Shown here one piece after another: positions 58,989 through 62,289 of a stretch of 64,000 nt of DNA (position 1 is the first letter of the stretch; every line of letters starts with the position of its first letter). The notes under the pieces are model-generated. The model was not told where the DNA came from, did no database searches, and saw only the letters and a program-made list of their open reading frames with translations. This DNA is from Rheinheimera sediminis (GTDB lineage Bacteria > Pseudomonadota > Gammaproteobacteria > Enterobacterales > Alteromonadaceae): NCBI RefSeq assembly GCF_004005375.1, contig NZ_RZUF01000011.1, positions 62,001 through 126,000 on the forward strand. Reading direction: 5' to 3'. The translations under genes and the position numbers were made by a program.

Positions 58989-59984
58989 ATGATGTTCGAA
59001 AGCAAGGTGTTCCGACTCTGGTTTATTGCAGCTTTGACCTTGTGGTTTGTGCTTTTTTATCAGTTTAATCAGCTAAGTTTTTTACTGGAGCATTGGTACT
59101 ACCCTGCCATTATGGTTGCAGGGGCCTTTGTCGCCGGTGTGACTCCCGAAGGTGGCGGAGCAGTGGCTTTTCCTGTGTTAAATATTTTTCTTAACATAGA
59201 CCGGACTATGGCGCGGGATTTTAGTTTAATGATCCAAAGTGTTGGCATGACCAGCGCCAGTATTTTTATCTTAAGTCACAAAGCGAACAGGCTGAAAACC
59301 TACAGACCTTTATTGCTGTTTATTCCCCTGGCATTTATTGGCTTTGTGCTTGGTATGCAGCTGCTGCAACAATTGCCTGTTTATATTATGCAGGCGCTGT
59401 TTTTAAGTCTGATCACCAGTTTTGCAGTGGTGTACAGCTTTGGCAAACACAGAGGCAGCAAACTGACTTTGGAGCTAAGTAAACCGCTGGATTTCCTGTT
59501 GTTGCTGCTGTTGTTGCTCGCAGGTGGCATGTGTGCCAGTTTATTTGGTACAGGCGCAGATATTATTTTGTTCACTGTTTTGGTGACCCATTTCAGGATG
59601 CAGGAAAAAGTTGCAACTCATATGAGTATTATGTTGATGGCAGCTATTAGTCTATTAGGTTTTGGTTACAGGCATTTTGTTGACCAGGCTTTAACTGGCT
59701 ATCAAGTGCAAACCTGGTTGTGTGCTTACCCTGTAGTCTTGCTGATGGCGCCACTCGGGGCCTATGTGTTGCACCTTATCAACAAGGAGATTATGTTGTA
59801 TGCGATTGCCGTGCTTAATATCGGTCAGTTACTATATTTTCTCTGCCATAACCCATCATTGGACAAGCTGATGTGGGCTTCAGCTTTTACTCTGGTATTG
59901 TCGACTGGCTTTTATATCTTGATCAGAAGCTTAAGCCGCAAAGTTATCTCCAGAGCGCAAGCTCAATGTGCTGGACCTGTTTAA
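58989..59984 (+). CDS. TauE/SafE (TSUP) family permease
   Basis: 331 aa from ATG 58989 (or 58992); an upstream frame to 58950 is unlikely. About eight membrane helices. The TSUP halves are visible: GAFVAGVTPEGGGAVAFPVLNI near the N-terminus and LAGGMCASLFGTGADIILFTVLV in the second half. These carriers export sulfite, sulfonates or other small organic anions; the substrate is not determined. A possible terminator or operator region follows before the SDR operon. Confidence 0.87.
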   Translation: MMFESKVFRLWFIAALTLWFVLFYQFNQLSFLLEHWYYPAIMVAGAFVAGVTPEGGGAVAFPVLNIFLNIDRTMARDFSLMIQSVGMTSASIFILSHKANRLKTYRPLLLFIPLAFIGFVLGMQLLQQLPVYIMQALFLSLITSFAVVYSFGKHRGSKLTLELSKPLDFLLLLLLLLAGGMCASLFGTGADIILFTVLVTHFRMQEKVATHMSIMLMAAISLLGFGYRHFVDQALTGYQVQTWLCAYPVVLLMAPLGAYVLHLINKEIMLYAIAVLNIGQLLYFLCHNPSLDKLMWASAFTLVLSTGFYILIRSLSRKVISRAQAQCAGPV

Positions 59985-59995
59985 AAGATCCAAGT

Positions 59996-60028
59996 AGATG
60001 TCGGACACGTATACCTATGTATACATCT
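59996..60028. promoter_or_regulatory. Dyad-symmetric operator candidate upstream of the SDR operon
   Basis: AGATGT (59996-60001) and ACATCT (60023-60028) are exact inverted copies, and two GTATAC palindromes lie inside at 60009-60014 and 60019-60024. The site is 17 bases before the SDR ATG. Related SDR-DUF2878-chalcone-isomerase clusters are often controlled by MerR/LitR-type light- or stress-responsive regulators, so such a regulator is a guess. Confidence 0.5.
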
Positions 60029-60044
60029 TTAAGAGTCTGAGTCT

Positions 60045-60788
60045 ATGTCCCGTTACTGCTTGATTACAGGTGCCAGTTCAGGTTTAGGCCGTGAATTGGC
60101 TATCCAATATGCCAGAGAAGGTTGGCAGGTTATTGCTGTTGCTCGTTCTGTAAATGCGTTAAATGAGCTGCATCAGGAATACAGCACTATTCATGCGTTT
60201 CCTTTGGATTTGACTAATACTGAGTTGTTTATTTCAGCCGTAAATCACTTGGCTGAGCAAATTCCAGCTTTAGATTTGGTCATTTTAAATGCTGGTAGCT
60301 GCGATTATGTTGATGCAAATCATCTGCCTCTGGATATTTTTGAGCGGACCATGACATTGAATTTCCAGGCTCAGGTCGCTGCTGTGAAGTTGTTACTGCC
60401 TCTTTTACAAAAATCAGAGCAAGGCACTGTGGCTATAGTTAGCAGCCTTGCTCATTTATTTCCATTTACTAAAGCACAGGCCTATGGTGCTAGTAAAGCC
60501 GCTTTAAGCTATTTCGCAGATAGCTTAAGAGTAGATCTAACAGATTCAGGCATTCGGGTATGTCTGATTGAGCCTGGTTTTGTTGACACACCTTTAACTC
60601 AAAAAAATGACTTTAAAATGCCATTTCTGCTGCAGGTATCTGATGCAGCAGGTCGCATTCGCAAAGGGCTTGATGCACAGCAGCAGCGCATAAGATTTCC
60701 GAAACGACTGGTATTTAGTCTGCATCTGTTGAATTTACTGCCTTACTCGTTGCGCTGCAAAGTTGCAGCCGGGATGCGCCAACCATGA
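60045..60788 (+). CDS. Short-chain dehydrogenase/reductase
   Basis: 247 aa. The cofactor loop GASSGLG is at 9-15, LNAG at about 84, Ser near 134 in VSSLAH, and the catalytic Tyr147-x3-Lys151 in YGASK. PGFVDTPLT follows. The substrate is unknown. The first gene of a three-gene operon; its TGA overlaps the DUF2878 ATG by two bases. In other gammaproteobacteria this SDR is linked to DUF2878 and chalcone-isomerase-like genes, often with cfa and photolyase. Confidence 0.9.
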   Translation: MSRYCLITGASSGLGRELAIQYAREGWQVIAVARSVNALNELHQEYSTIHAFPLDLTNTELFISAVNHLAEQIPALDLVILNAGSCDYVDANHLPLDIFERTMTLNFQAQVAAVKLLLPLLQKSEQGTVAIVSSLAHLFPFTKAQAYGASKAALSYFADSLRVDLTDSGIRVCLIEPGFVDTPLTQKNDFKMPFLLQVSDAAGRIRKGLDAQQQRIRFPKRLVFSLHLLNLLPYSLRCKVAAGMRQP

Positions 60789-61264
60789 CAGCAATCAACT
60801 GGCCGGTTTTAATAGGTTTTAAAGTAAGTTGGTTTGCCTTAGTGCTGTTGCAAAATCAACTCATAGTGCTGGTGCTGGTATTTTTGCTTTGGTCTTTGTG
60901 GCGCTGCAGTCAGGCGGAGCGTTTGGCTTGGTTGCTGTTAGCTGGTGTTGGTATAGCATTGGATTCGCTGCTGCAGTATGCCGGAGTTCTGAGTTTTACC
61001 GGCTCGACATGGTTACCACTGTGGATGCTGACGCTTTGGCTGGCATTCAGTTTGGTTGTGGTGAAGGTTTTTTCGGTCTATCTACAAAACTACTGGTTAG
61101 CAGCGCTTCTTGCAGCTGCGTCTGGTCCTATGGCTTATCTCGGTGGCTCAGCAGTCAGTGGTCAAATGCAGATCACTGCCACAACAGAAGCTTATATCGC
61201 CCTGGTTGTAGCTTGGGCTTGTTATGGCGTGTTATCAGGATGGAGCAGAAGATTCTATGCGTAA
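60785..61264 (+). CDS. DUF2878 membrane protein
   Basis: 159 aa with about five membrane helices spread over the whole length, basic termini and a C-terminal ...SRRFYA. The family is DUF2878, always small and integral to the inner membrane. Function unknown. It is coupled to the SDR upstream and overlaps the chalcone-isomerase-like gene by 8 bases, so the three act as one unit. Confidence 0.87.
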   Translation: MTAINWPVLIGFKVSWFALVLLQNQLIVLVLVFLLWSLWRCSQAERLAWLLLAGVGIALDSLLQYAGVLSFTGSTWLPLWMLTLWLAFSLVVVKVFSVYLQNYWLAALLAAASGPMAYLGGSAVSGQMQITATTEAYIALVVAWACYGVLSGWSRRFYA

Positions 61265-61766
61265 GATAATAGTTATGGTGGCAGTGCTGTTTTGTCTTAA
61301 TGCACAGGCTATACCCACAGATGTGAAGTTGGTAGGGCAAGGACAATTCAGCTATTTGTTTTGGGATTTGTATCAGGCAGAGCTTTATACTCAGGATGGT
61401 GGCTGGAGTGATTATCAGCAAAGTTCTCCTCTGGTGTTAAAGCTGACTTACCAACGTAAAATAACAAAAAAAGACTTTATTGAGGCTACTGTCGATCAGT
61501 GGAAGCATTTGAAGGGAGAGGTTTCTGTGCAGCATAAAGCATGGGCCGGGCAGTTGGCCGAGATTTGGACCGACGTGAAAAAAGGCGATCAGTTAAGTTG
61601 TGTATTACTACCTGACAATAGAGTCGAATTTTATTTTAATAACAAACTTTTGGGCGAGGTTGCTGACCCAAGTTTTGGTCCGGCTTTTTTAGATATCTGG
61701 TTGTCTGAGCAAACCTCAGCACCAAAATTAAGAAAACAGTTACTGAACCTAAGCTCGGGCACATGA
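61257..61766 (+). CDS. Exported chalcone-isomerase-like protein
   Basis: 169 aa from the ATG at 61257, which overlaps the DUF2878 stop; it starts with a signal peptide (IIVMVAVLFCLNAQAIPTD). VGQGQFSYLFWDLYQAELYTQDGGW and LKLTYQRKITKKDFIEATVDQW match bacterial chalcone_3-type domains. Flavonoid chemistry is not implied; the bacterial role is unknown, perhaps lipid or fatty-acid binding. It ends the SDR operon. Confidence 0.87.
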   Translation: MRKIIVMVAVLFCLNAQAIPTDVKLVGQGQFSYLFWDLYQAELYTQDGGWSDYQQSSPLVLKLTYQRKITKKDFIEATVDQWKHLKGEVSVQHKAWAGQLAEIWTDVKKGDQLSCVLLPDNRVEFYFNNKLLGEVADPSFGPAFLDIWLSEQTSAPKLRKQLLNLSSGT

Positions 61767-62289
61767 GTGCCAACCTTGGTCGGGGTAACGAATTCAATCA
61801 ACGAAGTAAAATCCTTGTGTAAAGCAATTAGAGTCTTTGCTGAATGAATGTACGGATTTTTGTGGAGCTGAAAGTTTCCCGTCCAGCCTTAGCTGGTGAT
61901 AGCCATATTGAGTAACTCAGAGAGGCGTGAAAATACGACTATTCAGTGGCAAGGCCTACTCCGGGTTTAGGTTGACTAATTTAGCTTATCTTGTTTTTCA
62001 TCTTATTTACTTCAGATTTTTGTGTTGGCTACTGCAAGATTTCTTTTCGTTTATTTATTCATCAAGCCTCTGATTGTCGTTTCCAGGCTGTAAATCAGAA
62101 TTATCATTTAGAAACAATTTGATAGGTCTTGCATGGGCTCTGTTGTCGGTGTTGCTGCTTATTTTGTTTTAGGTTGTTTTGCATACAATTAGTCATGTCT
62201 TTGATTTTTATCATAAATTTAACACCTGTGTTTTTTGCGACAGACGCCTGTTTAGCCGGGCTTTTGTTCCGCAAAAGCTGTTGACCACG

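Follow-up and report, generated by a model that had tools for sequence, protein, structure and literature searches.

The SDR, DUF2878 and chalcone-isomerase-fold (CHI) genes of Rheinheimera sediminis very probably belong, as a small operon, to the photo-oxidative-stress regulon of RpoE-ChrR (ECF11), and are a piece detached from a larger operon. They lie in the window, by which we mean the whole 64,000-nucleotide stretch analysed (G000:C4:62001-126000, in a genome of 4.49 Mb). The operon of origin would have had the order ybgA-phr-SnoaL-SDR-FAD oxidase-DUF1365-cfa-DUF2878-CHI-DUF3833. We envision that singlet oxygen or peroxide, the presumed inducing signal, inactivates the zinc anti-sigma factor ChrR, whose gene lies on a different contig. 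The sigma factor thus freed would then presumably start transcription at GATCC-N16-CGTATA, about 30 nt 5’ of the SDR start codon, and the same release would simultaneously switch on the photolyase/cfa operon, rpoE-chrR and a glutathione-peroxidase-like gene. The proposal is built from the genes, the promoter, the conservation and sharing of that promoter, the sigma factor and the metal ligands of ChrR, and the split gene order, all of them read from sequence. The original prediction that control may act in trans is very likely right, with a sigma factor as the most likely regulator rather than anything bound to the dyad that had been placed before the genes. The suggested kinship with operons linked to light or oxidative membrane stress is also supported.

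The three-gene unit, its promoter and the dyad

A reductase, a membrane protein and an exported protein had been read from three overlapping genes, and Pfam confirms this reading (Table 1). Given ATG 61257 as the start of the third gene, the SDR and DUF2878 frames overlap by 4 nt and the DUF2878 and Chalcone_3 frames by 8 nt. Because the frames overlap, a single, translationally coupled transcription unit is expected, and the view that the three genes act as one unit is supported to this extent. The longest open reading frame for the Chalcone_3 gene begins at 61224; ATG 61257 is the likely start and gives the protein what appears by eye to be a Sec-type signal peptide at its N-terminus. The SDR sequence carries the motifs TGASSGLG, NAG and YxxxK (YGASK). 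Its top NCBIfam match, PRK06101.1, lies under the cut-off of that model, as is also the case for three SDRs of the large operon.

Table 1. Predicted features of the SDR-DUF2878-CHI unit and its upstream region (window coordinates)
Feature	Position	Strand	Details
ECF11 (RpoE-ChrR type) promoter, predicted	59987..60013	+	-35 GATCC 59987-59991, 16-nt spacer, -10 CGTATA 60008-60013
GTATAC-CTAT-GTATAC, dyad core	60009..60024	.	left half is part of the -10 element; judged incidental
SDR oxidoreductase, 247 aa	60045..60788	+	PF00106, E 3.2e-43
DUF2878 membrane protein, 159 aa, six predicted helices	60785..61264	+	PF11086, E 1e-20
Exported chalcone-isomerase-fold protein (Chalcone_3), 169 aa from ATG 61257	61257..61766	+	PF16036, E 1.8e-16

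By sequence comparison, the conserved element in front of the SDR gene is a promoter of the ECF11 (RpoE-ChrR) type, and it extends into the first half of the dyad. RpoE2 promoters of Shewanella have the form TGATCC ... CGTATT/CGTAAT with the same 16-nt spacing, and Shewanella RpoE2 is called an orthologue of R. sphaeroides RpoE (PMC4336711), which a review classes as an ECF11 sigma factor (PMC6852236). The TGATCC-like -35 and CGTA-like -10 at fixed spacing that would mark a member of this regulon are present in Rheinheimera: RATCC-N16-CGTA, with a spacer of exactly 16 nt, lies 5’ of the SDR gene in 22/22 same-genus loci, which are related congeners and not 22 independent events, and in which the motif was both recognised and counted. 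The pattern persists in close and divergent congeners, the DUF2878 proteins of 11 aligned congeners being 31-83% identical to that of the window. Among named loci, which overlap the 22 genomes (e.g. L218/G052, L203/G123) and add names rather than independent counts, the SDR gene is directly 5’ of DUF2878 in 18, and the promoter pattern lies within 150 nt in 17 of these. At the remaining locus, L206, it is displaced by an inserted repeat, as it is at L099. In both cases a repeat of ~130 nt has been inserted right after the -10 element, leaving the promoter intact and the leader longer.

Transcription of the three genes could instead be dominated by read-through from an upstream TauE-like gene or by an unrecognised housekeeping promoter, with the ECF11-like element weak or idle. 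The TauE-like gene is well placed for this, as it lies on the same strand with its last nucleotide at 59984, which leaves 2 nt to the -35 element. However, in the more distant congeners L211-L216 and L218 no gene of TauE-like size was found directly 5’ of the SDR gene, yet the promoter is retained. No sigma-70-like promoter was detected on the + strand of 59800-61900, and the conservation of the ECF11 promoter in all 22 loci also counts against this alternative, which we consider very improbable.

The original prediction centred on a 33-bp dyad with two GTATAC sites. The 16-bp core, GTATAC-CTAT-GTATAC, is exact, but the 33-bp structure does not hold up: only 7/16 positions pair across 59996-60028, and at least 8 are reached by 2030 stretches of 33 nt in the window. 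The best symmetry near the dyad (even lengths of 14-40) is equalled or bettered by 28 (length 16) to 338 (length 30) window stretches, and is not unusual, since that many stretches of the 64-kb window do as well. In a single-stranded DNA fold prediction the region does not stand out from shuffled sequences (z-score -1.07). The genome contains two copies of GTATAC-N0-10-GTATAC versus one of the reversed pattern, and the sole other GTATAC pair, at C7:27298, has a different gap. The core is found in 1/22 same-genus loci, namely the window’s own; it is not conserved in the nearest relatives, and 21/22 copies of the same promoter lack it. The suggested check, a search for the dyad before cfa and photolyase genes, also went against it, as it is absent from the rpoE-chrR and ybgA-phr-cfa promoters inspected, and with it falls the dyad as the defining element of a regulon. 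Conservation, pairing, folding and genome count together led us to reject it as an operator. We judge the dyad to be incidental, its first GTATAC belonging to the predicted ECF11 -10 element; a misleading palindrome is thereby replaced by a concrete, testable regulatory element.

A strain-specific factor could nevertheless act through GTATAC-CTAT-GTATAC in addition to the ECF11 promoter, for instance by covering the start site as a repressor. The repeat is exact and sits over the -10 element and the expected start, but it lacks conservation in the nearest relatives, and the only other genome match has a different gap, against 1 match for the reversed pattern. We think a factor of this kind very improbable.

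In the original prediction, a MerR/LitR-type regulator was expected. Control of the operon by a MerR-family light regulator (PhrR/LitR type) bound to the GTATAC dyad draws some support from other genomes: a gene of the MerR cluster is present in 14/57 order-wide loci (one member checked, PF13411, E 1.2e-19), and the listed regulon of the MerR-family protein PhrR includes VC1123, the DUF2878 gene of V. cholerae (PMC12971978). In V. cholerae, the cfa gene VC1122 and the chrR operon are induced by blue light, a response shared by two regulators, ChrR/SigmaE and MerR (PMC5241685). Unlike V. cholerae, Rheinheimera has the ChrR pair and no operon-type MerR that we could find: the operon MerR of L094, used as query, has no relative in the R. 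sediminis genome at E <= 0.001, and same-genus genomes gave short HTH-level matches only. A conserved operator is also missing, in that the dyad, the sole operator sequence examined, is present in 1/22 loci. A more remote MerR protein could still be encoded, but we hold control by such a regulator through the dyad to be very improbable. Our search of the PhrR literature yielded nothing usable; PMC5343134, in the part available, concerns a different PhrR.

A separate observation concerns operons that do carry a MerR-type gene. In L049, L052 and L058, TTGTAC overlaps the spacer of an ECF11-type promoter 5’ of ybgA; the MerR protein might use it as an operator within that promoter.

A split operon and its probable sigma/anti-sigma pair

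We return to the ECF11 reading and to the genes that would share it. Across the order, DUF2878 is encoded in 62/119 genomes, and 57 of the 61 other DUF2878 loci were examined over 18 kb each. A recurrent operon emerges, [ECF sigma-ChrR] ybgA (MerR) photolyase SnoaL SDR FAD oxidase DUF1365 CFA DUF2878 CHI DUF3833, not all parts of which are present everywhere. SDR, FAD oxidase, DUF1365 and CFA genes lie on the same strand within 18 kb in 38/57 loci, together with DUF2878 in 33 and with CHI as well in 26.

In R. sediminis this set is not contained in one operon. The genes ybgA-phr-SnoaL-FAD oxidase-DUF1365-CFA are on contig C1 (L158), rpoE-chrR on C12 (L138) and SDR-DUF2878-CHI on C4, in the window. 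Pfam confirms every C1 gene and samples of the other clusters; in L158, PF02353, PF01593 and PF07103 (CFA-type methylase, FAD oxidase and DUF1365) adjoin. The original prediction that cfa, photolyase and a regulator are missing holds for the neighbourhood but not for the genome, where cfa and photolyase are on C1 and rpoE-chrR on C12. The same split arrangement was found in the congeneric loci examined. In two single-contig congeners, DUF2878, DUF1365 and ChrR genes are at ~1.37, 1.83 and 2.70 Mb (G120) and at ~1.31, 1.81 and 2.74 Mb (G137). An SDR of the large operon, used as query, retrieves the window SDR as the best match in the R. sediminis genome (E 1.9e-45; second match 1e-12). By this measure, the window SDR is the ortholog of the large-operon SDR.

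Both partners of the predicted regulatory switch are encoded on C12. Among PDB entries, the sigma factor comes closest to 2q1z, the sigma-E of R. sphaeroides, with an E of 4.1e-40; the second-ranked solved sigma factor reaches 2.2e-14. The adjacent ChrR matches 2z2s (E 4.6e-20), and the alignment retains the zinc ligands H, H, C, C and the cupin ligands H, H, E, H, as these are named in PMC6852236. Zinc-site and cupin patterns are present in 21/21 ChrR genes fetched in the genus. Elsewhere on C4, at G000:C4:26749-27375, a 244-aa frame has two ChrR-type cupin matches and is distinct from the sigma-adjacent ChrR; a similar double match is present in many congeners.

The kind of system described here is already known. 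In S. oneidensis, RpoE2-ChrR (SO_1986-1985) is a sigma/anti-sigma pair that, as in Rheinheimera, goes with a TGATCC-CGTA promoter of 16-nt spacing, and its targets resemble those proposed here: SO_3386 to SO_3374 (ybgA, phrB, cfa) and pgpD, SO_3349, a periplasmic glutathione peroxidase (PMC4336711). Expression of RpoE2 in Shewanella raises rpoE2-chrR, ybgA-phrB-cfa and periplasmic glutathione peroxidase transcripts (PMC4336711). In Rheinheimera, unlike S. oneidensis, the SDR-DUF2878-CHI genes stand apart as an operon preceded by a promoter copy of their own. The sigma-E-ChrR system of R. sphaeroides likewise pairs an ECF11 sigma factor with a ZAS/cupin anti-sigma factor (PMC6852236), and a sigma-E operon encodes an FAD oxidoreductase and a DUF1365 protein, with a fatty acyl methylase in the pathway, families that Rheinheimera shares (PMC7380195). 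In the portions available of three R. sphaeroides accounts (PMC6852236, PMC7380195, PMC3818230), DUF2878 and a CHI-fold protein are not named. Aeromonas salmonicida has a cluster of the same families, cfa, SDR, FAD oxidoreductase, DUF1365 and DUF2878, which is unsplit and predicted to be one operon; it is described in a riboflavin study and not in connection with this sigma factor (PMC10012899).

Two things are new: the gene set is split in Rheinheimera, and SDR-DUF2878-CHI has a promoter copy to itself. A gene set that is kept together in most relatives examined (the 38/57 loci above) is here in pieces, each with the same predicted sigma promoter, and three proteins of obscure role can be tentatively tied to the ECF11 singlet-oxygen response in this genus. 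For Rheinheimera and ChrR, our search of the open literature found nothing beyond heavy-metal remediation.

Sharing of the promoter across the genome

The expectation that the element before the SDR gene is shared with cfa and photolyase genes proved correct for the ECF11 promoter. One pattern, RATCY-N16-YGTA, was applied to a single region (-250 to +110) of all genes compared. It precedes SDR in 22/22, ybgA in 19/19, rpoE in 19/21, gpx in 16/22 and a DCC1-like gene in 9/10 cases, the last count referring to the 10 copies in the stretches fetched. Among other first genes of the same genus loci, with the DCC1-like gene left out, it was found in 0/234. An earlier genus control, made over a shorter region than was used for the test genes, gave 9/244, all nine being the DCC1-like gene, and order-wide control upstream regions gave 1/365. 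The matches are not uniform. At the ybgA operon promoter, the -10 has TGTA in place of CGTA; the remaining two of the 21 rpoE loci have GAACC at the same spacing; and the gpx set includes 6/22 upstream regions without the pattern as well as two of the 16 matches that fall inside seemingly over-extended reading frames.

Within the R. sediminis genome, RATCC-N16-CGTAW has 16 matches versus 14 for the reversed pattern, and the same number, 16, is obtained with N17 spacing. Because the pattern is not enriched genome-wide, it is solely position and conservation that carry the claim. Intergenic matches 20-60 nt before a start number 4/16 with N16 versus 0/16 with N17. These four lie 25-41 nt before the starts of SDR, rpoE, a gpx-like gene (PF00255) and a DCC1-like gene (PF04134). 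RATCC-N16-CGTAW had replaced a first pattern, GATC-N15-18-CGTATA, which was unselective (5 matches versus 11 reversed).

Two of these genes may extend the regulon. The gpx-like gene (G000:C26:6286-6837; L189, L258) has a signal-peptide-like start, and the DCC1-like gene on G000:C1 near 162.3 kb (L178) encodes a thiol-disulfide oxidoreductase; each has a RATCC-N16-CGTA promoter, and both are likely to be further members.

Order-wide, the element precedes first-of-unit genes to varying degrees: rpoE in 3/4, SnoaL in 10/20, ybgA in 8/24, DUF2878 in 2/9, SDR and photolyase each in 1/5, CFA in 1/6 and CHI in 0/8. One of the 10 SnoaL matches resembles photolyase coding sequence. Matches ahead of SnoaL that lie within photolyase genes were rejected as promoters, as by eye they are coding, with recurring Asp-Pro-x-Gly-x-Phe-Ile-Arg codons. 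The nine DUF2878 genes are those that border the large operon or lie away from it; the promoter was found in L047 and L089, and the pattern was not matched in L044, L050, L053, L071, L075, L076 or L081. By eye, a variant -35, GAACC, stands 16 nt from CGTA in L150 and L153 (rpoE) and in L071 (DUF2878).

Possible roles of the three proteins

The proposed regulon points toward lipid chemistry. In R. sphaeroides, UfaD (an FAD oxidoreductase), UfaO (DUF1365) and UfaM (a methylase) make furan fatty acid (PMC7380195), and RSP_1090 (UfaO) is required for ChrR degradation under singlet oxygen (PMC3818230). By family, R. sediminis encodes all three. Because its CFA-type methylase, FAD oxidase and DUF1365 genes stand side by side, a lipid modification related to the furan fatty acid pathway is likely in Rheinheimera. 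Deletion of RSP1087, 1088 or 1089, the extra genes of the R. sphaeroides sigma-E operon, left fatty acids unchanged (PMC7380195). This speaks against the three window genes taking a direct part in making furan fatty acids, although RSP1087, 1088 and 1089 are not necessarily their orthologs.

We suppose that membrane acyl chains, once oxidised or modified, are processed or carried by the three proteins. The SDR would be a cytoplasmic NAD(P)H reductase and DUF2878 an inner-membrane component, with the CHI-fold protein binding a fatty-acid-like ligand in the periplasm. A more specific version, which we offer as a speculation more likely wrong than right by a wide measure, is a membrane-to-periplasm module that salvages what singlet oxygen leaves of furan or methylated fatty acids, themselves products of the co-regulated DUF1365/cfa enzymes: oxo-acyl chains would be reduced by the SDR, handled within the inner membrane by DUF2878, and carried or sensed in the periplasm by the CHI-fold protein. 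With such a module, the ECF11 response would have a branch of its own for repair or signalling. Whatever the chemistry, a small detached operon is a handy target for studying the roles of DUF2878 and of bacterial chalcone-isomerase-fold proteins; our search of the literature on the latter returned nothing usable.

The AlphaFold2 model of DUF2878 has a mean pLDDT of 91 and gave no Foldseek match at E <= 0.001. The mycobacterial Insig homolog MvINS was considered as kin and rejected, as a Z of 6.2 over 116-117 residues, with an rmsd of 3.4-3.5 A, is too weak for a helical protein; we note this faint resemblance as a lead only.

For the CHI-fold protein, a sequence-profile search against PDB chains yielded three matches that we attribute to chance, the best (E 0.0006) being to a repeat protein with no single significant stretch, and did not provide a usable sequence alignment to a plant protein. 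The structural model is a confident one (pLDDT 86). It matches plant CHIL with a Z of 15.0, AtFAP3 with 14.4 and AtFAP1 with 13.4, so that Pfam and structure comparison agree in placing the protein, by fold, in the chalcone isomerase-like superfamily. It differs from these plant proteins in being bacterial and in having, by eye, a signal peptide, and shares 10-14% identity with them. Since the matches in this Z range of 13-15 are plant CHIL and fatty-acid-binding proteins, the model is in line with a hydrophobic ligand.
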